A DNA stretch of 64,000 nt from Pedobacter frigiditerrae. GTDB lineage: Bacteria; Bacteroidota; Bacteroidia; Sphingobacteriales; Sphingobacteriaceae. Made by a program: the position numbers and the translations under genes. Below, piece after piece: positions 1 to 30,981 of this stretch. Positions within the stretch are counted from its first letter, which is position 1. Each line of letters starts with the position of its first letter. The stretch lies in contig NZ_SJSK01000001.1 of the NCBI RefSeq assembly GCF_004331645.1, positions 558,001 to 622,000 on the forward strand, written 5' to 3'. The notes under the pieces were generated by a model. It saw nothing but the letters and a program-made list of their open reading frames with translations, did no database searches and was not told the DNA's origin.

Positions 1-171
1 AGGACCCTGTTCATCAACTACAGTTCCTGTTATTTTTCGTCGCTGTTGTGCCGCAGCATGATCAACCAAAAGTAAGGAAGCCATTAGTGTTAAATAAATT
101 ACGAGCAGCGCCTGCTTATACCTCCAATACTTGGAGTGCACAGCAATACCCGTTTTGGTATTTTTTTCCAT
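1..171 (-). CDS. SusC-like TonB-dependent receptor, N-terminal fragment (cut by window edge)
   Basis: Reading leftward from an ATG at 171, 57 codons are open to the window edge. The translation has a hydrophobic export segment at about residues 20-40 ending in AAAQ, followed by RRKITGTVVDEQGP, the opening strand of the carboxypeptidase-regulatory-like domain that begins SusC/RagA receptors. The protein would import oligosaccharides across the outer membrane with TonB energy. It is the only SusC candidate adjoining the xylan enzymes, so it is probably their transporter, with susD further left outside the window. The long N-terminal extension before the hydrophobic stretch (about 20 residues with several Lys/Arg) is common in this family. 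Only the first 57 residues are visible. Confidence 0.8.
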   Translation of the reverse strand, partial: MEKNTKTGIAVHSKYWRYKQALLVIYLTLMASLLLVDHAAAQQRRKITGTVVDEQGP

Positions 172-1344
172 TATTTAAATCGTTTAAAGAGAAATAGAAC
201 TTGGATAATTATATCAATCCGAATTTAATAGGATTATAAAAACAGAGATTTGTACCTGTTTTAGCTGGGCAGGGGCAGATTTCTCCCGCGGTTAGATAGT
301 AGTTTTTTGTCATAGTATTAGGTTTATATTTTGGTTTTTTGATTGATTAGTTTAATGCATTTAAAAGGTTCTCATGCATTGATGTCCGCTGGGGACAGAG
401 ACGTTAACTTGGTGCTGTCATTGAGTTCGGTTCTATATGGTTTATATTTTTGGTTACAGCTAGATAAAACCATTTGAGAAGGATACGCTCTTCATCAATT
501 TGCATATTGATTGAAGCTATTATCGTCTACACATAATTAGCAGTGCTAAGGTCAAATTCTTAACTCAAGTGCATTGCGTTCCCAAAATAATGAGAGCGAT
601 CGAATGAAATGTGTTAAGCGACTGATTCATAAACTGCTGCTAGGAAATGTTTTGGTCTATATTTAGTTTAACGAAACTAGTACAGCTACAATTTTTATGA
701 TAGCACAATTGTTCAAATTTATACCCTGTTTGTTTAAGGATGCAAAAACAGCATTTAAAGCATAATAAAAGGGGTTTTATTATAAAAATGTTCTATAATT
801 ATTGAACAAATGAGATGAAAACCTATATAAAAACTACAAATTTCGCATCCATTTTAACCAAAGTCTAACGTTCTATCTTTAAAATTAGTCGGCATCGGTT
901 GCACGGAAGCTTAAAACTGTATAAACTCCTTCATCAAGAAAACATCGAATTATAGCCCTAAGCGTACATTTAATAATGTTACATTATTTATTCAATCGGT
1001 TGCATAGAAATACTGATATTTAAGAGTCGATAGTATTATCTACTTATTTATATATATAAAGGAGTCTGCTTTATATGGGTTTTTAAAAACTTAAGGGCGC
1101 CCAAGATTAGCATATTGCGAATCGTTCAAAACATTGGATTTATACTTATATGAAACAAAGTACTTGCCCCCCTTTTTGCTGGATAAGTATCGATAAAAAC
1201 AAACAATTCATTAAAAGGGTAAATAGCTATCGCAACTTGTGTAAATGTTCAAATGTACTAGTAAAAATGATGAATTAAACCATTCGAAAAGTGTGTAGGT
1301 AGATAAATTCGCAATGTTGATTTAATTAATAAACTGACCAAAAT
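172..1344. other. 1.17-kb gene-free region between divergent susC-like and GH10 genes
   Basis: No open frame with coding character is visible here; the longest ATG-initiated frames are a few dozen codons and resemble nothing known. The stretch is AT-rich and lies between divergent genes, so it must contain the control regions of both. It holds a TATTTTTG at 445-452 matching the Bacteroidota -7 consensus TAnnTTTG on the plus strand and a TAAATTTG at 721-714 on the minus strand. Two copies of ATCGGTTGCA (894-903 and 995-1004) resemble LacI-family half-sites. It is long for a promoter region and could hide a small RNA or decayed gene. Confidence 0.6.
991..1004 (+). promoter_or_regulatory. Candidate LacI-family operator upstream of the GH10 group
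   Basis: TTCAATCGGTTGCA matches a LacI/PurR-type operator pattern (TGCAAnCGnTTGCA) at all but one defined position: CG in the centre, TTCAA on the left and TTGCA on the right. The right part, ATCGGTTGCA, also occurs at 894-903, 101 bp upstream. The LacI-type regulator at 21173-22210 is the obvious candidate ligand. A repeated 10-mer in a 1.2-kb region can arise by chance, so the support comes from the match to the operator pattern rather than from the repetition. Confidence 0.3.
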
Positions 1345-2424
1345 ATGAATGTGAAACTGAACAAATTACAATTAGGCATTTTACTGCTTTTTATAGGAAC
1401 CTTATTAATATCAGGCGTTAAAAAAACAGATGGACTTAAAGACTATTACAAAAAATATTTCCCCATAGGAGTTGCAGTTAAACCAAGCGACCTTAGGGGC
1501 AAAGAAAAATCACTGATCCTTGAGCATTTTAATAGTATCACTGCAGAGAATGCGATGAAAATGGGCCCAATACATCCTGGTGAAAACAGGTATTTTTGGC
1601 CAATTGCTGATTCGATCGTTGAATTTGGCGTTGCGAATAAAATAAAAGTAAGAGGACATTGTTTGGTATGGCATGCACAAACACCATTCTGGCTTTTTAA
1701 AGATTCAATAGGGCAGCCAGTTTCAAAACAAGTTTTGTTAAGCAGGATGAAAAATCATATCGAAACAGTGGTATCTCGCTACCGCGGAAAAATATATGCA
1801 TGGGATGTTGTAAATGAAGTGATTGCAGATGATACTAGTTACTACCGTAAATCGCAATTTCTTAAAATTGCTGGAGAGGATTTTATAGAAGAGGCCTTTA
1901 GATATGCCCACAAGGCAGACCCTAAAGCCATCTTATTTTATAATGATTACAATACTGAAAACGCTGCGAAAAGGGATAAAATTTATAAAATGCTTAAAAA
2001 CTTATTGGCTAAGGGAGTGCCCATACACGGTGTAGGGTTGCAAGCTCACTGGTCGATCAATAGCCCTACTAGAGCAGAACTTGAAAAATCTATCGAAATG
2101 TTCTCTTCATTAGGTTTACAGATTCAGTTTACCGAACTGGATATTTCTGTTTATGCCGGAAGACAGGGTGGACAACTCATTACTGGCGAAAAGAGCATTC
2201 AGCCTACTACGTTTACTCCAGAGATGGAACAAAAACAACTCGAGAAATATCAAATGATTTTTGAGGTATTTAGAAAGTATAAAAAAAATATAACCGGTGT
2301 TACTTTTTGGAACCTATCAGATAAATATAGTTGGTTGGATGGCAGGGGCCGAAAAAACTACCCCTTACTTTTCGACACCGAGCTAAAGCCTAAGAAAGCC
2401 TATTACGAAGTCATCAAATTCTAA
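1345..2424 (+). CDS. GH10 endo-beta-1,4-xylanase
   Basis: This is a single-domain GH10 (beta/alpha)8 barrel of 359 residues, the normal length for the family, cleaving internal beta-1,4-xylosidic bonds by a retaining mechanism. The acid/base is Glu158 in WDVVNE and the nucleophile is Glu264 in QFTELDIS; RGHCLVWH (about 103-110) and FWNLSDKYSWLDG (321-333) form the usual subsite motifs. The N-terminus has a hydrophobic segment (residues 9-24) ending LLISGVKK. The paralogue at 3395 has a lipobox Cys at the matching place and this protein has Val, so it may be periplasmic or membrane-anchored rather than a surface lipoprotein. It is the first gene of a rightward group of four. Confidence 0.95.
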   Translation: MNVKLNKLQLGILLLFIGTLLISGVKKTDGLKDYYKKYFPIGVAVKPSDLRGKEKSLILEHFNSITAENAMKMGPIHPGENRYFWPIADSIVEFGVANKIKVRGHCLVWHAQTPFWLFKDSIGQPVSKQVLLSRMKNHIETVVSRYRGKIYAWDVVNEVIADDTSYYRKSQFLKIAGEDFIEEAFRYAHKADPKAILFYNDYNTENAAKRDKIYKMLKNLLAKGVPIHGVGLQAHWSINSPTRAELEKSIEMFSSLGLQIQFTELDISVYAGRQGGQLITGEKSIQPTTFTPEMEQKQLEKYQMIFEVFRKYKKNITGVTFWNLSDKYSWLDGRGRKNYPLLFDTELKPKKAYYEVIKF

Positions 2425-2433
2425 AATCAATAA

Positions 2434-3297
<864 letters not shown>

Positions 3298-3394
3298 GCA
3301 CATAAAGATATTTACCCACTATCCAAATCAACACTTTTCAAATGCTAGACGACCATGCATTCAATAGTTTGATGAAACCTTAGAAAGAATACCT

Positions 3395-4507
3395 ATGAAC
3401 CGACCAACTATCAGCTGTAGCTATGTTATAGCTATATTTCTCATTATAATTTTAGGGGCATGCAAAACCAAACAATCAGCCCTAAACTACCAAGATGATC
3501 CTCGTGGATTAAAAGATTTTTACAAAGACTATTTCTCTATTGGTGTTGCTGTTGGCAAAAGAAACCTAGCTGGAGAAGAAGCAATGCTCATTAAAAAACA
3601 ATTTAATAGCGTTACGGCAGAGAACGACATGAAAATGGAGATGATGCAGCCTGTTGAGGGAAGATTTAATTGGTCTACAGCCGACTCAATTGTAAGTTTT
3701 GCCATGAAAAATAACATTAAAGTGAGGGGACATAACCTTTGTTGGCATGAACAAGCTCCTTCTTGGTTTTTTGTAGATAAAGATGGAAAACAAGTTAGCA
3801 AAGAAGTGCTTTTACAAAGGTTAAAAAGCCACATCGACGCAGTAGTTGGTAGATATAAAGGAAACATATATGCATGGGATGTGGTAAACGAAGCCATTGA
3901 TGATGATTCGACCAAATACCTTCGTGACTCTAAGTGGTACCAAATATGTGGAGAGGATTTTATCATTAAAGCTTTTGAATATGCACATGCTGCAGATCCA
4001 GATGCAAAATTGTACTACAACGACTATAATACCGAACGTCCTGAAAAAAGAGAAAGGCTTTACAAGCTCCTCAAAAGTTTAAAGGAGAAAGGTGTTCCAA
4101 TTGATGGCGTAGGGCTACAGGCACATTGGTCGATATATGAACCTACTGAAAATGAGCTGGTCACTGCAATTGAAAAGTATTCGTCTCTAGGGCTCAAGAT
4201 TCAGTTTACGGAGCTTGACATTTCCGTATACCCATGGGAGAAATTTAAACGTGCAAGAGGCGCAAACGAACCTGATGAATTTACACCGGCATTGGAAGCC
4301 CAGCAAATGGCAAAGTACAAAATGGTATTTGATGTGTTTAGGAGATACAAAAATGTAATCACGAATGTTACGTTTTGGAATATTTCGGACCGTAGAACCT
4401 GGCTTGACTCTTACCCTGTTGCGGGAAGAAAAAATTATCCGCTATTGTTTGATGCTCAATTTAAGCCGAAAAAAGCTTATTGGGAAGTAATCAATTTTAA
4501 GAAGTAA
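3395..4507 (+). CDS. GH10 endo-beta-1,4-xylanase, lipoprotein
   Basis: A second GH10 barrel (370 residues). The N-terminus is a lipoprotein signal with lipobox LGAC and Cys23, so the mature enzyme should be lipid-anchored, probably on the cell surface where Bacteroidota keep their endo-acting enzymes. The acid/base is Glu166 in WDVVNEAID and the nucleophile is Glu273 in FTELDIS. It shares long stretches with the GH10 at 1345 (both contain GVGLQAHWSI and IQFTELDISVY), so the two are recent paralogues. A surface and a non-surface copy would fit staged cleavage of long and then imported xylan chains; that division of labour is inferred. Confidence 0.95.
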   Translation: MNRPTISCSYVIAIFLIIILGACKTKQSALNYQDDPRGLKDFYKDYFSIGVAVGKRNLAGEEAMLIKKQFNSVTAENDMKMEMMQPVEGRFNWSTADSIVSFAMKNNIKVRGHNLCWHEQAPSWFFVDKDGKQVSKEVLLQRLKSHIDAVVGRYKGNIYAWDVVNEAIDDDSTKYLRDSKWYQICGEDFIIKAFEYAHAADPDAKLYYNDYNTERPEKRERLYKLLKSLKEKGVPIDGVGLQAHWSIYEPTENELVTAIEKYSSLGLKIQFTELDISVYPWEKFKRARGANEPDEFTPALEAQQMAKYKMVFDVFRRYKNVITNVTFWNISDRRTWLDSYPVAGRKNYPLLFDAQFKPKKAYWEVINFKK

Positions 4508-4549
4508 AAACTATTTGCTGGTTTAAATGAATCTTAATATAGTACTGAA

Positions 4550-5503
4550 ATGAAAAAGAATATTTTAATTGCGATATCGCTAGTATTTAGCTGTTTTTGG
4601 GCAAGCGCCCAAAACCCTATCATCAAGCACATCTTTACGGCAGATCCCGCTCCAATTGTTTACAGAGATACCGTTTTTCTATTTACTGGTCATGATACGG
4701 CGTCAGTTTCTGCAACTAATTATAAGATGCCCGATTGGCACGTTTTCTCTTCCACGGATTTAGTTAACTGGAAAGACTATGGAGCAGCCCTTTCTCCCAA
4801 AACCTTTTCATGGGCAACGGGTGATGCCTATGCTGCACAATGTATAGAGCGAGATGGCAAATTTTACTGGTTTGTGTCTACCTTCCATAAAAAGGATGAT
4901 AGAAGTAATGGCGGAGCGGCTATAGGTGTTGCCGTTTCTGATCATCCTACTGGGCCTTATAAAGATGCCATTGGAAAAGCCTTGGTAATTAACGAAATGA
5001 CCACAGACTTAAAACATGCTTGGGATGATATTGACCCAACGGTGATGATTGATGATGATGGACAGGCTTACATGTTCTGGGGAAATGGGAGTTGCAGATG
5101 GGTAAAGTTAAAAAAGAACATGATTGAAATGGATGGAGAGATTACCATCATCACTCCGAAAAACTATATAGAAGGACCTTGGGTATACAAAAGAAATGAT
5201 CTTTATTATTTGTTATACGCAAGCAAAGGCACCAAGCCAGAGATGATTGAATATTGTACAGCTAAAAGCATTACAGGGCCCTGGACTTATCAAGGCATTA
5301 TACAAGAAAACGTACCTAATAGTTTTACCACTCATCCTGGTGTGTTAGATTATAAAGGTAAATCTTATTTCTTTTATCATAACGGCTCGTTGCCAACTGG
5401 TGGAAGCTACAGACGGTCTATTTGTATTGACGAAATGTTTTATAATGCGGATGGTACGATAAAGAAAATTGTTCAAACGGCAACGGGCGTTGCCGTAAAG
5501 TAG
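4550..5503 (+). CDS. GH43 beta-xylosidase/alpha-L-arabinofuranosidase, catalytic domain only
   Basis: A 317-residue five-bladed beta-propeller of GH43 with a signal peptide ending ASAQ (residue 21). The inverting catalytic triad is visible: base Asp32 (TADPAP), pKa modulator Asp162 (DIDPTVMIDDDGQ) and acid Glu208 (IEGPW); His262 in THPG matches the propeller-centre histidine. It is closely related to the GH43 proteins at 16499 and 9366 but ends just where they continue into a CBM6 domain, so it is a CBM-less member. It is the last gene of the rightward xylanase group and is followed by a structured intergenic element. Confidence 0.92.
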   Translation: MKKNILIAISLVFSCFWASAQNPIIKHIFTADPAPIVYRDTVFLFTGHDTASVSATNYKMPDWHVFSSTDLVNWKDYGAALSPKTFSWATGDAYAAQCIERDGKFYWFVSTFHKKDDRSNGGAAIGVAVSDHPTGPYKDAIGKALVINEMTTDLKHAWDDIDPTVMIDDDGQAYMFWGNGSCRWVKLKKNMIEMDGEITIITPKNYIEGPWVYKRNDLYYLLYASKGTKPEMIEYCTAKSITGPWTYQGIIQENVPNSFTTHPGVLDYKGKSYFFYHNGSLPTGGSYRRSICIDEMFYNADGTIKKIVQTATGVAVK

Positions 5504-5547
5504 ATAAAATCAATCGATGACAAGCTATTATACAGGATAGTTAGTCC

Positions 5548-5715: not shown

Positions 5716-5920
5716 GGTTGTGGTTTTTGTAAGGTAGTGGATAAGTTTGAATGCGTTCTCCGTCGAAATGATTCAAGGCCGTGGCGTAGTGGGTTTGGCC
5801 TGTGTGAATTTGATGGGTTGCGATTTGCTTAACCCACCATATTTGTCATTGATAGCTTGACTAGGTATCGTAATGCACGTAACGTTTTTTTTCTAACGAT
5901 CTGTGTCTAAACGACCAAAA

Positions 5921-5964: not shown

Positions 5965-5976
5965 CGAAACCCATAC

Positions 5977-9313
<3,337 letters not shown>

Positions 9314-9365: not shown

Positions 9366-10736
9366 TTATTTTGCTTTCAACTGCCACCAGTCGAAGTCAA
9401 AAAGATTTTCTTTGCCTCCTTTAAATACCAGATATACATCGTGTTTTCCTTTTATCTCTTTAAGGTTACAAGCTATCGTTTTCCAGGCTTTACTTGCGCC
9501 ATTGCTTTTCACATTCAGGGTGCCTAATAAGATTCCAGCCTTATCATCGATTCTTATCTCAATACGTCCACCCGAAACAGCCGCAATATTCGCTTCGAAT
9601 TTTTTGGCGCTTTTACCAAAATCTACCCCACGTACTTTGATGAAATCATTATCATTAATATTGGTAACATACATTTGGTTTGTGCTATTATCCTTTAGTG
9701 TGTTAACGCCCTCTGACCAATTAATGGTTTCTGCCTCAATACGGTTGAACGGATTAAATGAACCTACTTGGTTAACTCCGGTCTCAGACCACCAAGGCAC
9801 TTCAGTAATTGTTCCGTCTGGATTGTATTTCAGTTCTTCTATACATACAGACCGTCTTTCGTGATGTAGATCCGCAAGCATAAAGTTTAGACGAAAATTG
9901 AAACCAAAAACATAAGATTTGCCTTTGTAATCAATTATTCCTGGATGATTGCCGCTCGATTTTCCGTTTGGTTTCATGATGTATCCTTTGTATTCCCAAG
10001 GACCGGTTGCGCTGTTGCTCATGGCATATCCGATGCCTTCTGGGCAGCAGGTAGAGGCATAACTCATGTAATAGTGGCCGTTTCGCTTGTAAGCCCAAGG
10101 CCCCTCCTGATAATGGTATACATCTGGGGTGGTTTGGCCTTTTGCCTTACCTACTTCTGGAACTTTGACAATCTCCCCAGAATAGGAGATCATGTCTTTG
10201 TTCAACTTCACATACCATAAGCTTGGGTTGCCCCAATATAGGTAAGCCTGCCCATCATCGTCAATAAACACACTAGGATCAATAGTGCTCCAAATATCAT
10301 CACCTCCAACTAGTTTTTTACCTAAAGGATCTTTAAATGGCCCATAAGGGCTATCGGCCACTAATACGCCGATTCCACTTCCCTGCACGGTGCAATACAA
10401 GTAAAACTTGCCATTTCGCTCTATGCATTGATGTGCCCATGCTCCGTTATCTTGTCTTCCCCAGCTAAAGCTTTTTAAAGAAGCGACTACACCACGATCA
10501 GTCCAATTTACCATATCGGTTGAAGTGTACAAAAGCCAGTCTTTCATCAAGAATTTCCCCATTCCTGGGCCTGCATTATTCTCATCATGTGTGGTATAAA
10601 GATAAACTGTATCCTTATGTACCAATGGGGCTGGATCTGCAGTAAATTTTGTCTGGATAATGGGGTTCTGAGCCATTGCAGATAGCGATAATGCAAGTAT
10701 CATTAAAGCAGAAAGCTTGCTGATTCTATTTTTCAT
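9366..10736 (-). CDS. GH43-CBM6 arabinofuranosidase/xylosidase
   Basis: The 456-residue protein has a signal peptide ending AMAQ (23), a GH43 propeller at about 25-320 and a CBM6 beta-sandwich at about 328-456 that starts FNRIEAETINW and ends FDFDWWQLKAK. Catalytic residues are Asp34 (TADPAP), Asp153 (TIDPSVFIDDDGQ) and Glu211 (QEGPW). The CBM6 probably binds xylan or xylo-oligosaccharides and keeps the catalytic domain on substrate. It is one of three or four paralogues in the locus with this domain pair. It is third of five genes in the leftward operon, 24 bp after GH31 and 52 bp before GH95. Confidence 0.93.
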   Translation of the reverse strand: MKNRISKLSALMILALSLSAMAQNPIIQTKFTADPAPLVHKDTVYLYTTHDENNAGPGMGKFLMKDWLLYTSTDMVNWTDRGVVASLKSFSWGRQDNGAWAHQCIERNGKFYLYCTVQGSGIGVLVADSPYGPFKDPLGKKLVGGDDIWSTIDPSVFIDDDGQAYLYWGNPSLWYVKLNKDMISYSGEIVKVPEVGKAKGQTTPDVYHYQEGPWAYKRNGHYYMSYASTCCPEGIGYAMSNSATGPWEYKGYIMKPNGKSSGNHPGIIDYKGKSYVFGFNFRLNFMLADLHHERRSVCIEELKYNPDGTITEVPWWSETGVNQVGSFNPFNRIEAETINWSEGVNTLKDNSTNQMYVTNINDNDFIKVRGVDFGKSAKKFEANIAAVSGGRIEIRIDDKAGILLGTLNVKSNGASKAWKTIACNLKEIKGKHDVYLVFKGGKENLFDFDWWQLKAK

Positions 10737-14880: not shown

Positions 14881-15125
14881 ACAGCTTATAAAAATTTGGA
14901 AAGGTTTTACACTTAGGTTATCCAAAGCTATTTACAAAAAAGTTAAACCTACCTAGCGCTTTGTTCAAATCTATGCGATGAATGTTTTCTCGTCAAAATT
15001 GTCACCCTGGCTTTTTAAGTAAAATAAATCAAATGTAATAGTAAATATGACGAAATAGACTAGTGACACAATCCCTGTCTCAATAATTTAGTGGAATTGA
15101 TTTAAACACCCAAATTGAATACTTT
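14881..15125. promoter_or_regulatory. Divergent promoter region between the two GH operons
   Basis: The 245-bp AT-rich spacer separates the leftward operon (first codon at 14880) from the rightward operon (15126). On the minus strand TAGCTTTG at 14930-14923 matches the Bacteroidota -7 consensus TAnnTTTG and is 43 bp before the GH43 start. No matching element with good -33 spacing was found for the rightward genes. It is the natural place for the hybrid two-component regulator to bind; no clear direct repeat was recognised by eye. Confidence 0.5.
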
Positions 15126-16496: not shown

Positions 16497-16498
16497 TT

Positions 16499-19828: not shown

Positions 19829-21169
19829 ATGCTAAAACACCTTGTTTTTTGCTTCGGCTTTATAACAGTTTTTAATTCAGTTAGTGCCCAAAACCCATTA
19901 ATTAATAGCCAATATACTGCAGATCCATCTGCTAGGGTTTTCGGTGATAGGGTGTACATTTACCCTTCTCATGATATCATAGCAACAAAGGAAAAAGGAA
20001 GACTGGGGTGGTTTGCAATGGAAGATTATCATGTCTTTTCATCTGCTAACCTTATCGATTGGACAGATCATGGTGTAATTGTAACGCAAAATAATGTCTC
20101 TTGGGTAAAACCAAACAGTTATAGCATGTGGGCACCAGACTGCATAGAAAGAAATGGGAAATATTACTTCTACTTTCCAACAACTCCAAAGGATACCATT
20201 GCTTATGGTAAGGGGTTTACCATTGGCGTAGCAGTTTCCAATAGACCTGAAGGTCCATTTATACCGGAAAGTACACCGATTAAAAATGTTAAAGGGATAG
20301 ATCCAAATGTCTTTATCGACAAAGATGGGCAAGCTTATCTTTACTGGTCAGGCGGTAACATATACGGCGCAAAACTCAAAGAAAATATGCTAGAGCTAGA
20401 ATCAGAAGTTAAAACGCTTGGCGATTTACCTACCAAAGGACTTAAAGAAGGCCCTTATATGTTTGAACGTAATGGGCTTTACTACCTTACCTACCCACAC
20501 GTAGAAAACAAAATTGAGCGGCTTGAATATGCCATTGGTAAACATCCCCTTGGTCCGTTTAAAGTAATGGGTGTTATCATGGATGAATCTGCGACAGGCT
20601 GCTGGACCAATCACCATTCCATTATCGAATTCAAGAAACAGTGGTATCTTTTTTATCATCACAATGATTACTCTCCAAATTTTGATAAGGCTCGATCTAT
20701 ACGAGCAGATAGTTTAACATTTAATGCAGACGGAACTATTAAAAAGGTTATTCCAACTTTAAGGGGAATTGGAGTTATTGATGCTAAGAAAACGATACAA
20801 TTAGACAGGTATTCTCAGATTAGTTCAAAAGGTGTGAGTATCGATTTTATAGATACTGCAGATAGATTTAAGGGTTGGAAAACAGTTTTTACCGAAAATA
20901 ATGCATGGTTGCAGTATAATACTGTTGCTTTTGGTAACAAGTCGTTGCACAATGTAAAGTTGAAGGCAAAATCAACTAAAGAGGTTTTAATTCAAATTCG
21001 CATTGGGAAACCTGATGGTCTTATGATTGCAGAAGTAAAAGTGCCGCAAAGCGAAAGCTTTATTGAAGTTAATGCTCCATTGTTAAAACGACAAACTGGT
21101 ATTCAAAATCTATTTATAGTAATGAAATCTAATGGCCATACTGAATTAGATTGGCTAACTTTCGAATAG
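19829..21169 (+). CDS. GH43 with C-terminal CBM6-like domain
   Basis: The 446-residue enzyme has a signal peptide ending VSAQ (21), a GH43 propeller with Asp32 (TADPSA), Asp158 (GIDPNVFIDKDGQ) and Glu207 (KEGPY), and a C-terminal CBM6-like beta-sandwich (about 325-446, ending TELDWLTFE). The C-terminal domain is more diverged than in the other CBM6 copies: the AETI/AETM strand motif is replaced by SKGVSIDFID. This gene ends the rightward operon, and its stop is 3 bp from the end of the convergent LacI gene, leaving no room for a terminator between them. Confidence 0.9.
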   Translation: MLKHLVFCFGFITVFNSVSAQNPLINSQYTADPSARVFGDRVYIYPSHDIIATKEKGRLGWFAMEDYHVFSSANLIDWTDHGVIVTQNNVSWVKPNSYSMWAPDCIERNGKYYFYFPTTPKDTIAYGKGFTIGVAVSNRPEGPFIPESTPIKNVKGIDPNVFIDKDGQAYLYWSGGNIYGAKLKENMLELESEVKTLGDLPTKGLKEGPYMFERNGLYYLTYPHVENKIERLEYAIGKHPLGPFKVMGVIMDESATGCWTNHHSIIEFKKQWYLFYHHNDYSPNFDKARSIRADSLTFNADGTIKKVIPTLRGIGVIDAKKTIQLDRYSQISSKGVSIDFIDTADRFKGWKTVFTENNAWLQYNTVAFGNKSLHNVKLKAKSTKEVLIQIRIGKPDGLMIAEVKVPQSESFIEVNAPLLKRQTGIQNLFIVMKSNGHTELDWLTFE

Positions 21170-21172: not shown

Positions 21173-22210
21173 TTACACCACTTTTTGCTCTAAATAGGAT
21201 CTTGTCGATTGCCTATCCACAATAGTGGGTTCCACTATAATTTGTGTAAGCTTATCATAAGGATTTGCCTGTTTAATCATCTCTAGAAAAAGCTTTACGC
21301 ACTCTTTGCCAATTAAATCTGGGTGTTGGTCTACCGTAGAAAGGCTGGGACTTACGTAAGAAGAAAAAACTTCGTTTGCGAAACCCATAACCCCGATTAT
21401 TGGCGGTTCTAGACCAGCCTCTCTAAGTTTGCGAGCAACGCCTAAAGCGGTAAAATCATCTCCAGCAATAATTGCATCAGGTCTATTCTCATTTCTAAGT
21501 AGCTTGCTCACCCCAAACCTTCCATCTTTAATAGAAAGGCCGCCAAGAATGATATCCTCTTGGTAAATAGCCATGTTATTCATCCGTAACGCCTGTTTGT
21601 AGCCTTCTAGTCGTTCACCAAAAATTTTAATCTTATGACTGGTGGTTACAAAGGCTATTCTTTTATATCCTTTTTCAATGAGATGGCTTGCGGCTAAAAA
21701 GCCTGCCCTAAAATCGTTAATGGTTACAGTTGGTACTTTAAGGCTATCGTGTACCCTATCAAAAAGTATGAGTGGTTTATTCTGATTAATCACCTCTTGG
21801 AAATGGGAAACATCATCAGTAGTTTCTAAGGCAAGTGAGGCCATTATACCATCAACCTGTGTTTCTAGCAGCGTATTCAACCCCTTAACTTCCTTAGACC
21901 GTGATTCGCTTGATTGACATACAATGATGCTATAACCACTTTCCTTTAGCTCATCTTCAATGCTATGGATAATGGATGCAAAAAAATGGGCCTCAATGCT
22001 AGGCACAATTATCCCAATGATGTATGTTTTGCCAGATTTAAGTGCGGAAGCCAATTTATTAGGCCTATAATCAAGTTTGGCAGCCATGTCTACAACGGTT
22101 TTTCGCGTACTTTCGCTAGTTCCTGGAAAATCCCTTAATGCCCTCGAAACGGTAGAGACGGTTATGCCCAACGCACTAGCAATATCGTATATGGTAGTTA
22201 GCTTTTTCAA
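21173..22210 (-). CDS. LacI-family transcriptional regulator
   Basis: A 345-residue LacI/GalR protein with the helix-turn-helix at the N-terminus (IYDIASALGITVSTVSRALR, residues 7-26, then the hinge region NKLASALKSGKT) and a periplasmic-binding-protein-like ligand domain from residue 68. Such regulators bind a sugar and release, or gain, an operator. It lies downstream of GH43 and GH3 on the same strand (69-bp gap), so it probably belongs to that transcript. With the hybrid regulator nearby it gives the locus two independent inputs. Candidate operators are at 991-1004 and, weakly, 26615-26628. Confidence 0.93.
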   Translation of the reverse strand: MKKLTTIYDIASALGITVSTVSRALRDFPGTSESTRKTVVDMAAKLDYRPNKLASALKSGKTYIIGIIVPSIEAHFFASIIHSIEDELKESGYSIIVCQSSESRSKEVKGLNTLLETQVDGIMASLALETTDDVSHFQEVINQNKPLILFDRVHDSLKVPTVTINDFRAGFLAASHLIEKGYKRIAFVTTSHKIKIFGERLEGYKQALRMNNMAIYQEDIILGGLSIKDGRFGVSKLLRNENRPDAIIAGDDFTALGVARKLREAGLEPPIIGVMGFANEVFSSYVSPSLSTVDQHPDLIGKECVKLFLEMIKQANPYDKLTQIIVEPTIVDRQSTRSYLEQKVV

Positions 22211-23979: not shown

Positions 23980-26592
23980 TTAAAGTATGGTTATGGTTTT
24001 TTTAAGAAGATTGCCAGAAGTTGGGTTCATTTCATCAGGTTGTGACCCTCCAGCACTTATCACGAGTTTACCCTTTATCACCTGAGCAACCCCATCTTCT
24101 TTGATGAATGAAAGTTCCCTCGGCGAAAGGCTAAATTTTAGAACTTTACGTTCTCCAGGCTTCAGCACAATCCTCTCAAAACCTTTTAATGTTTTTATTG
24201 GAGATTTAACCTTTGAGTTCGGATTGCTGATGTAAAGCTGGACCACCTCCTCACCAGTAATATTACTTGTATTGGTTATCGCTACGCTTAAATTTAGCCT
24301 GGCACCTCCCTTAATCTGGGCGGGCATTATTAACTGCTCATACTTAAATGAACTATAGCTAAGTCCATATCCAAACCCATAAAGCGGTTTTCCAGAAAAG
24401 TACCTATATGTTCTGCCAGTCATTGAATAGTCTGAAAAGTTGGGTAAATCTGAATCGCTCGCATAAAAGGTAACAGGTAGTCTTCCTGCTGGATTATAGT
24501 CTCCAAAAAGCACATCAGCTACAGCAGTGCCGGCAGATTGCCCTCCATACCAACAATTGACTATGGCCGGAATATTTTCGGCTTCCCAAGGAATTGCAAT
24601 GGCGCTTCCTGTCATCATTACAAAAACCACTGGCTTTCCTGTACCGTGCAAGGCTTTCATTAAATCGGTTTGTACTTTTGGCAGCATGATAGAAGTTCTA
24701 TCGCCTCCGCTAAAACCGGGAAAATTAACCTTCATTTCTTCGCCCTCGAGTTGCGGAGATATACCGCCTACATACACAATTGCATCTGCATCTTTAATTC
24801 TTTCTACCAAGGCTATGAAGTTTGTCTTTTGGTAATTTCCAGCACTTAGCTTAATATTTGCTTTACCGTCGCCCTGCCAGTATTCTAGTACGATTTGGTA
24901 AGATTTACCTTTTTGTGCCAACAGTTTGTATTGTTGCGCTCCCCATCTATTTCTTGTCCAAGCATTAATCACTTCCTTACCATCAACCTTGAAACGGTAA
25001 CCATCATCACCCTCTATTTCGAAAGTAACTGGACCATCTGCATCTGACAAATAGTTAGTTGTATATCTTGCTGAAAAATTCCTGGCAACTATACCTTCGC
25101 CTACTTGCTGTCCTTCTTGCCAAGCATGTTCTAAACTTTGTTCTTGCCTTGAAACAGGATTACCTTTCAGTTCATTATTTGCAAAATATTCTGCCTTAAA
25201 ACCTTGCTTTCCATCAAAGCTGCATTGATTTGAATAGTTTCTATAAGCCAAAAGCGTATCATTGGTAAAGTTAATTGCCTTTTCATATACCACATTAGCA
25301 TTGGGCAGCTTTTCTTTAATACCTTGAAGAACCGTTTTAAGTACAGAAGGCGTACCATTGTAATTACCTAGTATGGCGATTGGGTTATCAGCATTGGGAC
25401 CTAAAACCACTATTTTTTTAACCGACTTGCTTAAGGGCAAGGTGTTGTTTTTATTTTTGAGCATCACTATTGATTGCCTAGCCATTTTCAGTGAATGGGC
25501 TTTGTGTTCATCGCTTTCAAGTACCGAAGATGAGGTTTGAGCATATTTAACCATCTCTTTTGGGTCGAACATACCTAGCTTGAACCTAGTCATGAAGAGG
25601 CGTTTTACAGAAACATCAATTTGGGATTCAAGCAGTTTACCTTCTTTAACCGCTTTTACGAGAGATTTGTAGGCGTCGGTTCCACATTCTACGTCGGTTC
25701 CATGTAAAACTGCATCTGCAGAGGCTGATGCAGCATCCTTATGTGTTTTGTGGTTCTTAAAAAAATCATCTATTCCCCAACAATCTGAGGTAACATATCC
25801 AGTAAAGTTCCATTGTTTGCGAAGGATATCTACCATTAAAAGATCACTGCCACAACAAGGTTGAGTTTGAAAGGCGTTATAGGCACACATTACTCCTTCA
25901 ACCTTACTCTCTACCACCAATTTTCTAAATGCCGGCAGATAAGTATCCCATAAATCGTACTTGCTAACTTCTGCATTAAAGACATGTCTATCAGGCTCTG
26001 GCCCACTGTGTACGGCATAATGTTTGGCACAAGCGGCAGCCTTTAGATATTTAGGATCATCACCCTGTAAACCTTTTACAAAAGAAGCACCCATTACCGA
26101 TGTCAAGTAAGGGTCTTCGCCATAGGTTTCTTGCCCACGGCCCCACCTTGGATCTCTAAAAATATTGATATTTGGTGTCCAGTAGGTAAGGCCAACATAA
26201 CGATCTCCGCTACGCCCCATTTCTATGGCTTTGTTATTTATTGCTCGCCCCTCCGATGCAGAATAGTCTGCCATTTTAAATAAAGACTGTTTATCGAAAG
26301 TTGCGGCCATACCAATTGCTTGGGGATACACAGTTACTTTGAATGGAGTTCTTGCAACTCCATGAAGCACCTCGTTCCACCAATCATAAGCAGGAATTCC
26401 CAATCTAGGAATGGCTGGAGCTGCATTAAGCATTTGTCCTACTTTCTCTTCCAAGGTCATTCTAGAGACAAGGTCATCAACCCTCTTCTTAAAATCGAGC
26501 TTAGTGTTTTGGAAAGGGTATTTGTTCTGTGCAATTACTGATAATGGTAGAGCAAGGAATAGACAGAGCGATATTTTGAGTTTGAATTTCAT
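23980..26592 (-). CDS. GH3 beta-xylosidase with inserted PA14 domain
   Basis: An 870-residue GH3 enzyme with signal peptide ending VIAQ (22). The order is GH3 barrel (about 28-350), an alpha/beta sandwich interrupted by a PA14 domain at about 455-605 (KAEYFANNELKGNPVSR opens it), the rest of the sandwich, and a fibronectin-III-like domain (about 765-865). The nucleophile is Asp270 in GYVTSDCWG. PA14 insertions of this kind are common in GH3 beta-xylosidases/glucosidases and shape the active-site entrance. It probably converts xylo-oligosaccharides to xylose. It is the first gene of the leftward GH3-GH43-LacI group. Confidence 0.93.
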   Translation of the reverse strand: MKFKLKISLCLFLALPLSVIAQNKYPFQNTKLDFKKRVDDLVSRMTLEEKVGQMLNAAPAIPRLGIPAYDWWNEVLHGVARTPFKVTVYPQAIGMAATFDKQSLFKMADYSASEGRAINNKAIEMGRSGDRYVGLTYWTPNINIFRDPRWGRGQETYGEDPYLTSVMGASFVKGLQGDDPKYLKAAACAKHYAVHSGPEPDRHVFNAEVSKYDLWDTYLPAFRKLVVESKVEGVMCAYNAFQTQPCCGSDLLMVDILRKQWNFTGYVTSDCWGIDDFFKNHKTHKDAASASADAVLHGTDVECGTDAYKSLVKAVKEGKLLESQIDVSVKRLFMTRFKLGMFDPKEMVKYAQTSSSVLESDEHKAHSLKMARQSIVMLKNKNNTLPLSKSVKKIVVLGPNADNPIAILGNYNGTPSVLKTVLQGIKEKLPNANVVYEKAINFTNDTLLAYRNYSNQCSFDGKQGFKAEYFANNELKGNPVSRQEQSLEHAWQEGQQVGEGIVARNFSARYTTNYLSDADGPVTFEIEGDDGYRFKVDGKEVINAWTRNRWGAQQYKLLAQKGKSYQIVLEYWQGDGKANIKLSAGNYQKTNFIALVERIKDADAIVYVGGISPQLEGEEMKVNFPGFSGGDRTSIMLPKVQTDLMKALHGTGKPVVFVMMTGSAIAIPWEAENIPAIVNCWYGGQSAGTAVADVLFGDYNPAGRLPVTFYASDSDLPNFSDYSMTGRTYRYFSGKPLYGFGYGLSYSSFKYEQLIMPAQIKGGARLNLSVAITNTSNITGEEVVQLYISNPNSKVKSPIKTLKGFERIVLKPGERKVLKFSLSPRELSFIKEDGVAQVIKGKLVISAGGSQPDEMNPTSGNLLKKTITIL

Positions 26593-26614
26593 TTTCCAAT
26601 TGATTTATTTGCCA

Positions 26615-26628
26615 TTGTATCGGTTTAT
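26615..26628 (-). promoter_or_regulatory. Weak candidate LacI operator upstream of the GH3 gene
   Basis: TTGTATCGGTTTAT has the ATCGGTT core found twice upstream of the first GH10 gene and sits 23 bp ahead of the GH3 start codon (26592), within the likely promoter of the GH3-GH43-LacI group. The flanks are only loosely palindromic. It would allow autoregulation by the LacI protein. The match is weak alone. Confidence 0.2.
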
Positions 26629-26789
26629 CTAGCGGGAATTAAGCCTTTTAAGCACAAATATTGATTTTCTCCTTTAATGCAATATGCCAAACAAGTAACA
26701 GGAATTTTTTGTAGTAATGGTCCATACGTATATTTGATTTATCCAAATCTAGTCCATGTTCAATAAATTGAATAGGTGATTTGTTCAAG

Positions 26790-26831
26790 AATAACCCACA
26801 AATGTTTTCTCTGTCAACATTGTAGGTTATT
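26790..26831 (-). terminator. Hairpin directly after the hybrid regulator gene
   Basis: AATAACCCACAAATGTT (26790-26806) pairs, with one mismatch and a bulge, with AACATTGTAGGTTATT (26816-26831). It begins 1 bp past the regulator's stop codon at 26833, which suits a terminator. The T-run after it on the minus strand is poor, so efficiency is uncertain. Confidence 0.5.
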
Positions 26832-26832
26832 G

Positions 26833-29800
26833 TTACGAATGATCTTTTTTATCCTTGCGCTTTGCATTGATATATTCTGAAGGAAGCATATTAAATTGAG
26901 CCTTAAAAAGCCTTGAGAAATAACTAGGCGTACCAAATCCTGTCATGTATGCAATTTGTGCAACATTATAATCACTTTTTTCCAATAGCTCTACAGCTCT
27001 TTCTAATTTAACTGATCGGATATACTCAATTGGTGTAAGACCAGTTATTTCCAATAGCTTATGATATAATGAGCCTCTGCTCATTCCAACATGCTTACTC
27101 AATTCTTCAACAGATAATTCTGGATTATTTAACTTCTCGTCTATATACTTTACGATTTTGCTCAATAACTTAACCTCGCTTGATTCGATTTCTATTTCCT
27201 TGGATTCAACTTTGACTTGTTTTGAATAAGCATTCTTTACTGATCGGTTGAACAGTAACAAATTCTCAATCTTTGCTTGTAGAATATCAAAATTAAAAGG
27301 CTTGGTAAGGTAATCGTTAGCTCCAGACTTCAGGCCTTTTATTTGGTCCTCTTCTCCACTAATTGCTGTAAGTAGAATTACGGGAATATGGCTGGTCCTT
27401 TTGTCGGCCTTGATTTTTTGACTAAGTTCGATACCGTTCATTTCTGGCATACTGATATCACTTACCACTAACTGAGGGTGTCCAGAAAGTGTTTTTTGCC
27501 ATCCTTCTTTCCCATTTGATGCTTCAATAATTTGGTAATAGGGTTGTAGGCTATCCCTTAAATGGAATCTAAACTCTTCATTGTCCTCTACTAAAAGAAC
27601 AGTTGCTATTTTTCCATTGGTAACTGCCGAACCTTGGTCAACTTCCGATTGGAAATCAGTCATCTCACCCAATACATAGTCATTGTTTTCAGAGCCAGAT
27701 ACTTGCTCTTGCTCTATTATCTCTACGGGTAGGGAAACCAGAAAAGTAGATCCTTTGCCAAGTTCACTTTCCAATGTGATCTCGCCTCCATGCAATTCTA
27801 TAAATTCTTTCACGATCGACAATCCAATCCCACTTCCTTGATTTAGAATCGAACTTACATTATTACCCATAAAGAAACGATCGAAGACCTTAACCTTGTT
27901 CTCAGGGGCTATCCCAATTCCCGTATCCGAAACTGCAATATCAAATATAGGTTTGGAGTTGCTAGGTGAAATTTGCAATGACATCCTTAAACTGACCGTT
28001 CCACCTTCTGGTGTAAATTTGAAAGCATTAGAGAGCAGATTGAATATAATCCGCTCCATTTTATCCTGATCAAAATAAGTTTGTAAACTAGGCGCATCAC
28101 TGCTCACTTGAAGAGAGATTTTTTTCCGATCGGAAAGGTCTTGAAAAGCTTCTGCTGCTTCCTTAACAAAGAGGATTAAATCGCCTTGGCTCAGGTTCAA
28201 TTTCAACTCTTGTTCTTCCATCTTTCTAAAATCGAGTAGCTGGTTAACAAGGTTCAGCAATCTACGGGCATTCCTCTTGATCATTTTTACCTGGCCAGAT
28301 ACATATTGATCTTGCTTAACAGAAAGCAATTTATCCACAGGGGCTAATATGAGTGAGATGGGTGTTCTAAACTCGTGGCTTAAGTTAGTGAGGAACTTGA
28401 TTTTTTGTATGTCTAATGCATGTGCACGTTCTGCTTCTCTTTGCTGCTGAAGTATCTTTTGTTGGATATTGATTTGCTCTTGCTCTAGCGCAAGTTGCCG
28501 TGTTATGCGTTGAATTCCTCTTCGTCTAATTGCAAATAACATAGTGCCAATTGCAATTACGTAAAAAGCATATGCATAAACAGTGCGCCATAGAGGGGGC
28601 TGCACATGTACGGATATAGAGGTTACCTTATTGCTCCAGGAACCATCGTTATTACTTGCCCTTACCTGAAAAGTGTAATTGCCTGGGTCTAGATTGGTAT
28701 AATAGGCTGTCTTTTCCCTTTCTACGTAATTCCATTTATCCTCAAGGCCTACAAGGCGGTAGGAGTAATTGTTTTGTTCAGGAGCTGTATAGTTCAGAGC
28801 TGTATAGCCGATGGAAAAGTTCTGACCGTAGTTTAAATCTATTTTTTTTGCAAATCCAATCTGTTCTTTAATAGGCGATTTTTCACCGGGAAGCACTACA
28901 ATGTTAGCGACCTTCAGCTCAGTAAGCAACACACTTGGGGCAGTTTTTGTAGCAGGTAAGTCCCTTGGAAAAAAGTAATTGAAGCCTTCTTGTCCACCAA
29001 AATAAAGTTCTCCGTCTGAAGTAGTAGTCCCAGAGCCTAGCACAAATGGGCTATCTTGTAATCCATTAGGGCGACCAAAGTTTTTGATTTTCTTGGTTTT
29101 AGGGTTAAGACTGCTAATTCCCCTATCCGTACTGAACCATATAACCCCAGCGTGATCTTCGAGTATCTTGTAGACAATTGGGCTTGGAAGACCATTCGAT
29201 TCGTTGAAATTGGTAAACCTACCAGTTCGAGGATCAAAAAAATCTAAGCCTCCACCATCTGTGCCTGCCCATAAATTGCCTTTACTGTCATGCAGTAAAC
29301 TCAACACCACATCATTAGAAAGCCCACTATTTGCCTTATTATATAGTTTGAACTTTCCTGTTTTATGCTGATAAACGGCTATTCCAGTTCCATTGGAGGC
29401 CAACCAGATGTCTCCTTTGGCATCCTCTGAAATGGCACGCATGTATCCATTGCTTGGCAGTAACATAGGAGGGATAAGATAGGTTCCATAACGTGTAAAA
29501 AGATTGGTCTTTGGATTGTATACATTAACTCCATTTCCATTTGTACCTATCCAAATCATTCCTCTACTGTCTTCTTTCACGAAGAAAATATCATTCTGGC
29601 TCAAATCACTGGCTAAAGGGCCAGCTAGAAATTGCTTATAGCTTTTTGTTAACATATTATAACAGAATAGCCCATCCTGATAAGTCCCTATCCACAAAAA
29701 ACCACGAGTGTCTAAGTCAAGTGCAAGTATGGAAAGTGGGTTCCCAGAATTATCAATCTTGCTCTTCACATTAATATGTTCAAAAAGCCCACTGCTCCTA

Positions 29801-30981
29801 TCAAAATAATGCACTCCACCTCCATCTGTGCCAATAAATAGCTTACCTTTTTTATGTTCTACAAAAGACGTAACAATTGGAGATCTTAAACCTTTGGGAT
29901 CAAAGGGACTGCTATGTTTTAGATTAAAAAGAGCCAAATTTGGGTCCAACTTATTCACTCCACCCTGAAAAGTTCCAAGCCAAATTATCCCATCTTTGGC
30001 CATACAAATGCTTCTTACAGATTTATGGCTCAAACCGAAAGGCTCTCGTCTGTTAGGTCGAATGTTAGAGAAGGTTTGTGTTTTAGTATCGAAAATACTC
30101 ACTCCCTCTTCTGTCCCGATCCAAATCTTGCCTTGTTTGGCTAAGCTAGTCTCGTAAATTAAATTATCCGAGAGCTGATTACTACTTGGTTGCAAAAATG
30201 CCTTAAACTGACCATTTTCGCTTATCAACATATTCAGCCCTCGGTTAGTGCCAAAATATATACGACCACTTTCATCTTTAATGATCGTGCTAATGCAATT
30301 GTTACTAAGACTGTTTGGATCTGATGGGTTATGAATGAATTTCTCGGTTATGCCAGATTTTAAATCAACTGCTAAAAGGCCCACATTTGTTCCAACCCAC
30401 ATCTTATTACTGTTTCCCTGAGAAAATGAGAGCACGCTAGATCCATTTCCCATAAAGGTATTGATCCCAACATTCCTTACCTTAAATGTCTTAGGGTTAA
30501 TTATTCTATATCCACCAAAGGTGCCAACCCAAATATTTCCACTCTGATCCTCATATAGGGTCAAAACATTAAATTGACCAGTCCGACCAGGTATCCCATC
30601 ACCAGTAAATGAGGTAAATGTATTCTTTTTAGAGTCATAGAAACACAAGCCTCCGGCACTTGTTCCTACCCATAACCTGCCTGATTTATCTTCTAAAAGG
30701 GCAGTTACGTTATTGGAAGGAATACTTGTACTATCCTTGCTTTTATTGGTATATACTGTAAAATTGGTGCCATCAAATTTGTTAAGGCCATCGTTGGTAC
30801 CGAACCAGGTTAGTCCATTGCGGTCTTGAAGAATAGTATTAACTGTATTTGATGATAATCCATTCTTGGTGGTTAGCGTAATGAAATTTGGAGTATTTTG
30901 CCCCAGAGCTACATTACACATTAATAACATAGCAATAAAGAGTAATATTACGCTTGAATTAGCTATTCTTTTGAACATCAT
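26833..30981 (-). CDS. Hybrid two-component system regulator (HTCS): sensor kinase, receiver and AraC DNA-binding domain
   Basis: A 1382-residue single-chain signalling protein. After a signal sequence (to about residue 28), two seven-bladed periplasmic propellers of two-component-regulator repeats occupy about 30-700, then a Y_Y_Y domain (about 725-795) and one transmembrane segment (about 805-822). Inside are a coiled linker, a HisKA domain with phospho-acceptor His869 in SHEFRTP, an HATPase domain (GTGIGI-like SDTGIGIAPE and GSGIGLSIVKE motifs), a receiver with Asp1175 in VSDISMPEMNG, and an AraC helix-turn-helix at about 1275-1375. Such proteins bind an oligosaccharide in the periplasm and activate their locus directly. 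Size and order are typical; ligand is presumably a xylo- or arabinoxylo-oligosaccharide. Confidence 0.96.
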   Translation of the reverse strand: MMFKRIANSSVILLFIAMLLMCNVALGQNTPNFITLTTKNGLSSNTVNTILQDRNGLTWFGTNDGLNKFDGTNFTVYTNKSKDSTSIPSNNVTALLEDKSGRLWVGTSAGGLCFYDSKKNTFTSFTGDGIPGRTGQFNVLTLYEDQSGNIWVGTFGGYRIINPKTFKVRNVGINTFMGNGSSVLSFSQGNSNKMWVGTNVGLLAVDLKSGITEKFIHNPSDPNSLSNNCISTIIKDESGRIYFGTNRGLNMLISENGQFKAFLQPSSNQLSDNLIYETSLAKQGKIWIGTEEGVSIFDTKTQTFSNIRPNRREPFGLSHKSVRSICMAKDGIIWLGTFQGGVNKLDPNLALFNLKHSSPFDPKGLRSPIVTSFVEHKKGKLFIGTDGGGVHYFDRSSGLFEHINVKSKIDNSGNPLSILALDLDTRGFLWIGTYQDGLFCYNMLTKSYKQFLAGPLASDLSQNDIFFVKEDSRGMIWIGTNGNGVNVYNPKTNLFTRYGTYLIPPMLLPSNGYMRAISEDAKGDIWLASNGTGIAVYQHKTGKFKLYNKANSGLSNDVVLSLLHDSKGNLWAGTDGGGLDFFDPRTGRFTNFNESNGLPSPIVYKILEDHAGVIWFSTDRGISSLNPKTKKIKNFGRPNGLQDSPFVLGSGTTTSDGELYFGGQEGFNYFFPRDLPATKTAPSVLLTELKVANIVVLPGEKSPIKEQIGFAKKIDLNYGQNFSIGYTALNYTAPEQNNYSYRLVGLEDKWNYVEREKTAYYTNLDPGNYTFQVRASNNDGSWSNKVTSISVHVQPPLWRTVYAYAFYVIAIGTMLFAIRRRGIQRITRQLALEQEQINIQQKILQQQREAERAHALDIQKIKFLTNLSHEFRTPISLILAPVDKLLSVKQDQYVSGQVKMIKRNARRLLNLVNQLLDFRKMEEQELKLNLSQGDLILFVKEAAEAFQDLSDRKKISLQVSSDAPSLQTYFDQDKMERIIFNLLSNAFKFTPEGGTVSLRMSLQISPSNSKPIFDIAVSDTGIGIAPENKVKVFDRFFMGNNVSSILNQGSGIGLSIVKEFIELHGGEITLESELGKGSTFLVSLPVEIIEQEQVSGSENNDYVLGEMTDFQSEVDQGSAVTNGKIATVLLVEDNEEFRFHLRDSLQPYYQIIEASNGKEGWQKTLSGHPQLVVSDISMPEMNGIELSQKIKADKRTSHIPVILLTAISGEEDQIKGLKSGANDYLTKPFNFDILQAKIENLLLFNRSVKNAYSKQVKVESKEIEIESSEVKLLSKIVKYIDEKLNNPELSVEELSKHVGMSRGSLYHKLLEITGLTPIEYIRSVKLERAVELLEKSDYNVAQIAYMTGFGTPSYFSRLFKAQFNMLPSEYINAKRKDKKDHS

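Follow-up and report, generated by a model that had tools for sequence, protein, structure and literature searches.

A candidate locus for complex feruloylated arabinoxylan in Pedobacter frigiditerrae, with a GH95 enzyme akin to those of pectin loci

Gene content of the locus

By reading a stretch of 64,000 nucleotides (hereafter the window; contig NZ_SJSK01000001.1, C1:558001-622000) from the 5.81 Mb genome of Pedobacter frigiditerrae (assembly GCF_004331645.1, 13 contigs) together with the genes to its left, we found a polysaccharide utilization locus (PUL) of approximately 43 kb (C1:545521-588981), which starts about 12.5 kb to the left of window position 1. In gene content and in the kinship of its proteins it resembles PUL-XylL, a complex-xylan locus of Bacteroides ovatus, and we consider it, with a probability of roughly 0.78, to be a PUL of that kind, directed at complex feruloylated grass arabinoxylan. 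Its GH95 enzyme, a predicted alpha-L-galactosidase, groups with enzymes from pectin loci.

All enzyme families named in an original prediction made from the DNA letters, i.e. two GH10, seven GH43, GH3, GH95, GH31, GH97 and two esterases, were recovered by Pfam far above the cut-offs. The single hybrid two-component regulator (HTCS) of that prediction is also present, while a second regulator, of the LacI family, had been overlooked. The DNA to the left of position 1, where susD, GH115, GH67 and GH5 genes were to be looked for, does hold two susD genes, in an operon with the order susC1-susD1-susC2-susD2-SGBP-GH10 that ends at C1:545521, but no GH115 or GH5 match was found among the genes scanned. 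The surface glycan-binding protein (SGBP) of this left operon is a BT_3987-like/DUF5627 surface protein, and its GH10 (GH10c) was matched in two stretches. Judged by eye, GH95, GH31, GH97 and the GH43 enzymes have signal-peptide-like N-termini, and GH10b, GH10c, the SusD proteins and the SGBP lipoprotein-like ones. The features of the locus within the window are as follows.

1-171, minus strand: 5' end of susC1, first gene of the left operon (whole gene C1:554998-558171, start codon at window 171); Plug and CarboxypepD_reg domains, 54% identity with a SusC from the B. xylanisolvens PUL-XylL
990-1005, no strand: ATTCAATCGGTTGCAT, candidate operator of the LacI type in the gap from susC1 to the first GH10; pattern match
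1345-2424, plus strand: GH10 endo-xylanase; Pfam E 4.9e-107
2449-3297, plus strand: SASA-type esterase, probable acetyl xylan esterase; Pfam, 61% identity with SASA in the B. xylanisolvens PUL-XylL
3395-4507, plus strand: GH10 endo-xylanase (GH10b); Pfam E 1.2e-108, lipobox-like LGAC by eye
4550-5503, plus strand: GH43; Pfam
5977-6849, minus strand: predicted CE1-type feruloyl esterase; Pfam, GLSMG motif at residue 182, best PDB match 1jjf
6821-9313, minus strand: GH95, predicted alpha-L-galactosidase; Pfam, active-site alignment to 4UFC, trees
9366-10736, minus strand: GH43 with CBM6, arabinofuranosidase/xylosidase type; Pfam, 58% to a PUL-XylL GH43
10761-13235, minus strand: GH31, predicted xylan-type alpha-xylosidase; Pfam, 64-66% identity with its counterpart in the B. 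xylanisolvens PUL-XylL
13324-14925, minus strand: GH43 with GH43_C2, likely AXH-d3 type (arabinofuranosidase, doubly substituted xylose); Pfam, 6mly 793 bits, HiAXHd3 211 bits
15126-16496, plus strand: GH43 with CBM6; Pfam
16472-17866, plus strand: GH43 with CBM6; Pfam, 53% to a PUL-XylL GH43
17878-19821, plus strand: GH97 of the retaining branch, predicted alpha-D-galactosidase or beta-L-arabinopyranosidase; Pfam, Asp409/Glu458
19829-21169, plus strand: GH43 with CBM6; Pfam
21173-22210, minus strand: LacI-family regulator; Pfam, recognition helix shared with the LacI of the C10 xylose/GH115 locus at 67% overall identity
22280-23932, minus strand: GH43 with GH43_C2, near a GH43_12 structure; Pfam, PDB match
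23980-26592, minus strand: GH3 with PA14 insert, predicted beta-xylosidase; Pfam, 45% to a PUL-XylL GH3
26833-30981, minus strand: hybrid two-component regulator (Reg_prop, Y_Y_Y, HisKA, HATPase, receiver and AraC helix-turn-helix domains); Pfam

Comparison with PUL-XylL

Publications are cited here by PMC number, for the excerpts that were available. PUL-XylL of B. ovatus contains GH31, GH95, GH97 and GH98, families described by its authors as previously unlinked to xylan breakdown; on corn xylan its GH31 freed xylose and its GH95 freed L-galactose, its GH97 cleaved para-nitrophenyl alpha-D-galactoside, and BACOVA_03422, BACOVA_03423 and BACOVA_03438 were active on corn xylan or on the matching synthetic substrate (PMC4491172). 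For comparison we used a stretch of about 38 kb from B. xylanisolvens XB1A that contains a 98% orthologue of 4UFC, the structure of BACOVA_03438. Identities between window and XB1A proteins were 64-66% for GH31, 61% for SASA, 48% for GH95, 45% for GH3 and 37-39% for GH97, and 58%, 53% and 40% for GH43 enzymes with XB1A relatives. The transport and surface proteins were likewise related (SusC1 54%, SusD1 54%, SusC2 46-49%, SusD2 53%, SGBP 36%, GH10c 38%), while SusC scores in many other loci were mostly 24-38%. GH31 and GH97 adjoin in XB1A, and the consecutive tags BACOVA_03422 and BACOVA_03423 suggest the same in B. ovatus; the XB1A pair is presumably orthologous to these two genes.

The shared features are thus a susC-susD-susC-susD-SGBP-GH10 core, GH31, GH97 and GH95 in one locus, and several GH43 enzymes, GH3, SASA and an HTCS, at identities of 30-64%. 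The proposed parallel between GH95 plus GH31 here and in the B. ovatus complex-xylan locus is therefore supported, as relatives of most PUL-XylL components are present, and this component-wise match makes a highly substituted, galactose-containing arabinoxylan, as had been suggested, the best-supported substrate. The locus nevertheless differs from PUL-XylL in its gene order, in a GH95 from another clade, in a CE1 gene directly behind GH95, and in a LacI regulator with a candidate operator; the XB1A stretch had no match to the window CE1 or LacI.

GH115, GH30 and GH98 of PUL-XylL were unmatched among the scanned genes here. The reported absence of GH67, GH115 and GH8 holds for the scanned locus genes, and for GH67 and GH8 it extends to the whole genome (both families were detected in control genomes), but GH115 occurs twice outside the locus, at C10:123831 and C6:123111. 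A genome-wide search for GH98 gave no match, and likewise none in any of the 14 control genomes, so that it does not establish the absence of GH98. The endo-enzymes of complex xylan, GH98 (with GH30_8 and GH115) or GH5_21, gave no match among the scanned locus genes, GH5 and GH30 being sought in the locus only.

The window GH31 matched the GH31 of the XB1A PUL-XylL with 1241 bits, against 552 bits for the next XB1A GH31. In GH97, Asp409 and Glu458 are the counterparts of the Asp and Glu in 3a24 that we take to be the nucleophile and acid/base of the retaining branch. For the GH43 at 13324-14925 the best match is the GH43-CE protein 6mly (793 bits), followed by HiAXHd3 (211 bits), a kind that presumably acts on doubly substituted xylose.

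Phylogeny and genomic context of GH95

The window GH95 has the three-domain architecture, the catalytic Asn pair and the Glu acid of its family; T390, N392, N394 and E521 align with T370, N372, N374 and E501 of 4UFC. It is 48% identical to BACOVA_03438 (4UFC), and stands in row 97 among the GH95 rows matched by 4UFC. Thr370 was considered as a marker of L-galactose specificity and rejected, as XacAfc95 has Thr yet is a fucosidase (PMC8245568).

To collect GH95 relatives, 121 genomes from the same bacterial family were searched, 82 of them giving a match at E<=1e-100, and named genomes contributed the 80 best loci of a capped scan; 73 stretches of the same-family set were hand-picked as best matches and controls. 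The FastTree phylogeny comprised 165 rows, i.e. 161 GH95 rows, the window and three PDB sequences, and neighbors within about 10 kb of GH95 were read in 153 loci, some of them shortened by contig ends. As xylan context we counted at least two nearby relatives of the window CE1, SASA, GH10 or GH43, a rule that scores likeness to window proteins and can miss other xylan loci, e.g. L123. Such context was found for 8 of 21 rows in the clade of 4UFC, 20 of 37 in a clade here called XylB, none of 57 in a third clade (53 distinct sequences; six rows on loci shorter than 15 kb) and one of the 42 other rows.

This third GH95 clade is pectic by its neighbors. Among the matches listed for 75 neighbor proteins in 19 loci (counts resting on 25 of 70 families) were eight pectinesterases, four GH28, four rhamnogalacturonase/epimerase-like and four BD-FAE-like proteins, two GH88, two apiosidase-like proteins, two rhamnosidases and one BT_1020-type propeller. 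A GH88 and an apiosidase-like gene are found in Phocaeicola vulgatus (L152), and a BT_1020-type protein with two rhamnosidases in Flavobacterium (L136). In the inner part of the clade, a pectate lyase/pectinesterase occurs in L150 and a pectinesterase together with a Pel9A-like protein in L053. L121 carries genes for glucuronate isomerase and a PfkB kinase, which would fit the use of uronates; the two neighbor genes in L061 were uninformative. A GH95 of Segatella copri, situated in a locus with CE8, is reported to be upregulated on pectin (PMC11784079).

In FastTree four relatives (67-69% identity; L044-L047) join the window GH95 in a fully supported group beside rows of the pectin clade, the support being 33 for that clade overall and 99 for its inner part with the window. 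An IQ-TREE phylogeny of 50 rows gave an SH-aLRT of 93 to a clade of 22 rows uniting the window group (100) with pectin rows, and set L135 and L143, pectin-clade rows in FastTree, outside these 22. Constraining the window group to join 15 rows of the XylB part was rejected (p-AU 0.0056), as was joining it to these 15 and six rows of the 4UFC clade (p-AU 0.0067); the constraint groups were named after a tree had been seen, and these p-AU values are somewhat optimistic. The 15 rows form one group in IQ-TREE (88) and include L147, outside XylB in FastTree, and L134 and L067, which lack xylan context. Judged by these trees, the window GH95 is not an orthologue of the B. ovatus xylan alpha-L-galactosidase, in spite of the common Thr, Asn, Asn, Glu active site. 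At a deeper level the window GH95 falls within a group that takes in 4UFC or its orthologue as well as enzymes from rhamnogalacturonan II (RG-II) contexts, and excludes the fucosidase 7KMQ; this group is supported at 100 in FastTree and at 97, for 45 rows, in IQ-TREE.

Five positions separate pectin-clade from xylan-clade GH95; the window clade is pectin-type at four and mixed at the fifth, and no basic position clearly marks a glucuronate pocket. These positions therefore support kinship, not substrate.

Within the window group, L046 has GH43 (67-68%) and GH3 (68%) relatives about 9-17 kb from GH95, and L044 has a GH51-like arabinofuranosidase near GH95 and a BD-FAE-type esterase directly behind it (L044:11202-12188). 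The founding BD-FAE took ferulate off oligosaccharides with the feruloylated side chain FAXG, described below (PMC8165983). BD-FAE-like genes were also seen near pectin-clade GH95s. On a 4.9 kb contig of a Hymenobacter metagenome-assembled genome (L123:176-4883), a third-clade GH95, a GH43 (76% to that of the window) and a GH67 are direct neighbors, which may mark a further case of such a GH95 being recruited for xylan. In L048, L049, L050, L051, L052, L054 and L124, two adjoining GH95 genes belong to different clades, and further GH95 matches with in-frame stops, perhaps decaying, occur in the P. frigiditerrae genome at C10:54618-56891 and C6:1119700-1121994.

The CE1 feruloyl esterase

The CE1 protein has a GxSxG serine motif and its best PDB match is 1jjf, the esterase part of the endo-xylanase Z (XynZ), with 221 bits; the two have the serine motif in common, but the window enzyme stands alone whereas 1JJF is part of a xylanase. 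On these grounds it is predicted to be a feruloyl esterase. Its real start is probably an inner ATG about 10 nucleotides behind the GH95 stop, on the same strand, which would open a plausible signal peptide.

CE1 relatives of at least 55% identity within about 10 kb of GH95 were found for 16 of 37 XylB genes, two of the four other genes of the window clade and one of 21 in the 4UFC clade, but for none of the 57 pectin-clade genes (53 distinct sequences) and none of 42 other GH95 genes. In eight XylB loci, one of the window group and one of the 4UFC clade, the CE1 relative lay at most 400 bases from GH95 on the same strand. Since CE1 thus occurs beside xylan-type GH95s and not by those of the pectin clade, the window GH95 appears tied to a feruloylated substrate. 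The CE1 tree was poorly supported and did not bear out joint descent with GH95.

Regulation

The closest match to the window LacI elsewhere in the genome, at 67% identity, is a LacI at C10:122075-123091 whose recognition helix is identical; the next best reaches 39%. The C10 locus includes a xylose-isomerase-like TIM barrel, an FGGY kinase, MFS and SSF transporters, LacI, GH115, GH43, SASA, GH10, SusD and SusC, and is likely the glucuronoxylan partner of the window locus. The whole region (C10, about 115000-149000; L117, L249) appears as a second xylan locus, in which three operator sites of the LacI type lie.

The gap between LacI and GH115 in C10 contains a palindrome, ATGCAACCGATTGCAT, of a form usual for LacI regulators, which was made into a pattern and then sought in the window. 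With at most one mismatch it occurs in four places in the genome: window 990-1005, in the susC1-GH10 gap, and three sites in the C10 locus, two of which flank the LacI gene (one being the source of the pattern) while the third separates the C10 susC from a divergent gene that had no match in Pfam. The reversed control pattern matched one place. The window site is the only one there at this threshold, where 0.01 were expected and one of 100 shuffles had one. At up to three mismatches the window was no better than chance (5 found, 4.39 expected), and neither was it with a looser 14-base pattern (3 found, 2.93 expected). When seven intergenic stretches of the window were searched for palindromes, three were found, all of them AT-rich and in the susC1-GH10 gap.

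Among the collected loci of at least 7 kb (3.57 Mb including overlaps; 178 such loci, one added after the scan), the pattern at up to one mismatch was found in 10, including the window's own site, the C10 locus and L222, which lies close to the window-group GH95 gene in L047. None of the loci with xylan context by our rule contained it, and the scan therefore gives no support for conservation of the operator at relatives.

We propose that the window LacI, a paralogue of the xylose-locus regulator, binds the candidate operator between susC1 and GH10. Xylan systems under LacI or HTCS control are already known in general (PMC12125979). The predicted xylose regulator of B. thetaiotaomicron belongs to the NrtR family (PMC3878776), and such LacI wiring would therefore differ from that of this gut model.

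Neighboring genes

Just past the hybrid regulator (31318-33376) lie a PETase-like hydrolase and a xylose-isomerase-like TIM barrel, which were not assigned to the xylan locus. A separate SusD/SusC pair is situated at 43176-47731 with an M14 peptidase gene on the same strand (48176-50659), and no xylan enzyme was found among the neighbors scanned. Beyond the left end of the locus is another one with GH92, a sulfatase and a further SusC/SusD pair.

Proposed function and alternatives

The side chain FAXG, alpha-L-Gal-(1,2)-beta-D-Xyl-(1,2)-5-O-feruloyl-Araf, decorates grass arabinoxylans and was present in 12 of 12 cereal grains tested; in maize, O3 of the L-Gal may in addition bear alpha-D-Gal (FAXGG) or alpha-D-Xyl (FAXGX) (PMC4712305). 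The window holds one candidate for each bond in these chains, i.e. GH97, GH31, GH95, CE1, GH3/GH43 and GH43 arabinofuranosidases. At the cell surface, the SusC/D pairs, the binding protein and the lipoprotein GH10 (both left of the window) would cut and import decorated xylo-oligosaccharides, whose side chains would be dismantled tip-first in the periplasm. GH31 would take the alpha-D-xylose cap and GH97 the alpha-D-galactose cap off L-galactose, GH95 would then remove the alpha-L-galactose, and CE1, encoded directly behind it, the ferulate. Beta-xylose would fall to GH3/GH43 and arabinose to several GH43 enzymes, one of them of the doubly-substituted-xylose type, while SASA would remove acetyl groups and GH10, GH3 and GH43 finish the backbone. 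The HTCS would sense an oligosaccharide, and LacI may act on the single operator between susC and GH10. The tip-first order is supported by work in which a GH95 alpha-L-galactosidase and a GH31 alpha-xylosidase of a thermophile together opened corn-fiber oligosaccharides to arabinofuranosidases (PMC7176698).

Several observations weigh against a PUL of the PUL-XylL kind. The HTCS shares only 30% identity with that of PUL-XylL, and GH97, at its 37-39% and with the best PDB match 5xfm (labelled Alpha-glucosidase), may act on another sugar. The pectin/RG-II GH95s are closer relatives of the window GH95 than is the xylan alpha-L-galactosidase of proven activity, xylan context was found for one of the four other genes of its group, and in L045, of which 60 kb were read, a GH30 and an amylase-like gene were seen but, besides GH95, no match to a window xylan enzyme. 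Furthermore, the Thr at the -1 site, present in the fucosidase XacAfc95 too, is not diagnostic (PMC8245568).

The last point, together with 5xfm, which we take to be a beta-arabinopyranosidase, leaves room for a xylan locus whose GH97 is a beta-L-arabinopyranosidase or whose GH95 is an alpha-L-fucosidase, with a side chain other than FAXG. We find this doubtful: although the -1 site cannot tell GH95 specificity (PMC8245568), the deeper GH95 group leaves out the fucosidase 7KMQ, and the B. ovatus GH97 cleaves the synthetic alpha-D-galactoside (PMC4491172). It is improbable that the locus is an ordinary arabinoxylan PUL in which GH95, and perhaps GH97, serves another polymer such as RG-II, parked there by chance or through shared regulation. 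The pectinesterases, GH28, GH88, apiosidase-like proteins and rhamnosidases around related GH95s would fit such an arrangement; however, the feruloyl esterase directly behind GH95, with its relatives near xylan-clade and not pectin-clade GH95s, speaks against it, as do the placement of GH95 in one strand-run with a xylan-type GH31 and GH43s, and the xylan-type GH43/GH3 relatives with the GH95s of L044 and L046.

A xyloglucan locus, with GH31 as alpha-xylosidase, GH95 as alpha-L-fucosidase and GH43 enzymes as arabinofuranosidases, was rejected as very improbable. The best PDB match of GH31 is BoGH31A, presumably a xyloglucan enzyme, and GH31 and GH95 cluster in xyloglucan loci too (PMC8245568). 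Three GH10, the feruloyl esterase, SASA and the susCDCD-SGBP-GH10 core nevertheless speak for a xylan locus, the GH31 bit scores favor the PUL-XylL enzyme, and the endo-xyloglucanase families GH5, GH9, GH12 and GH74 had no match among the scanned genes of the window and its left extension.

For a feruloylated-arabinoxylan PUL, tree position and context suggest that GH95 is an alpha-L-galactosidase. BT1010 (GH95) frees L-Gal from RG-II chain A, as BACOVA_03438 does from xylan (PMC10154630), and this chain ends in L-Gal (PMC12168206). Enzymes of RG-II/pectin loci surround the window GH95 in the tree, but it differs from the BT1010 type in residing in a xylan locus; BT1010 itself was outside the tree, and if it belongs in the third clade, as the neighbors suggest, the window enzyme would be bracketed by L-galactosidases. 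By description, the sequences being left aside, the set also resembles that of the thermophile LL1355, whose GH95s 687 and 697 are alpha-L-galactosidases on corn-fiber glucuronoarabinoxylan oligosaccharides, paired with a GH31 alpha-xylosidase (PMC7176698).

We regard it as evenly balanced whether this GH95 was recruited from RG-II digestion, replacing the usual GH95 of xylan loci while the feruloyl esterase partner was kept, in a locus answering to an HTCS and to a LacI xylose regulator common to the GH115/xylose locus. In RG-II, L-Gal is linked alpha-1,2 to glucuronic acid, and in FAXG alpha-1,2 to xylose, which is glucuronic acid minus the carboxyl carbon; little change would therefore be needed. 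No report of a pectin-type GH95 in a xylan locus came up in our searches, which covered open-licence papers only. As a kind the locus is already known, and its variant features are modest: a third-clade GH95, its CE1 partner, GH98, GH115 and GH30 unmatched among scanned genes, and a candidate LacI operator.

Feruloylated side chains bearing L-galactose are thought to hinder the digestion of cereal bran, and few enzymes that remove L-galactose are known. The locus offers a complete candidate enzyme set in a bacterium outside Bacteroides, pairing the L-galactose step with a feruloyl esterase step. Pectin-type and xylan-type GH95 enzymes, furthermore, provide a natural comparison for GH95 specificity, which the -1 site does not explain.

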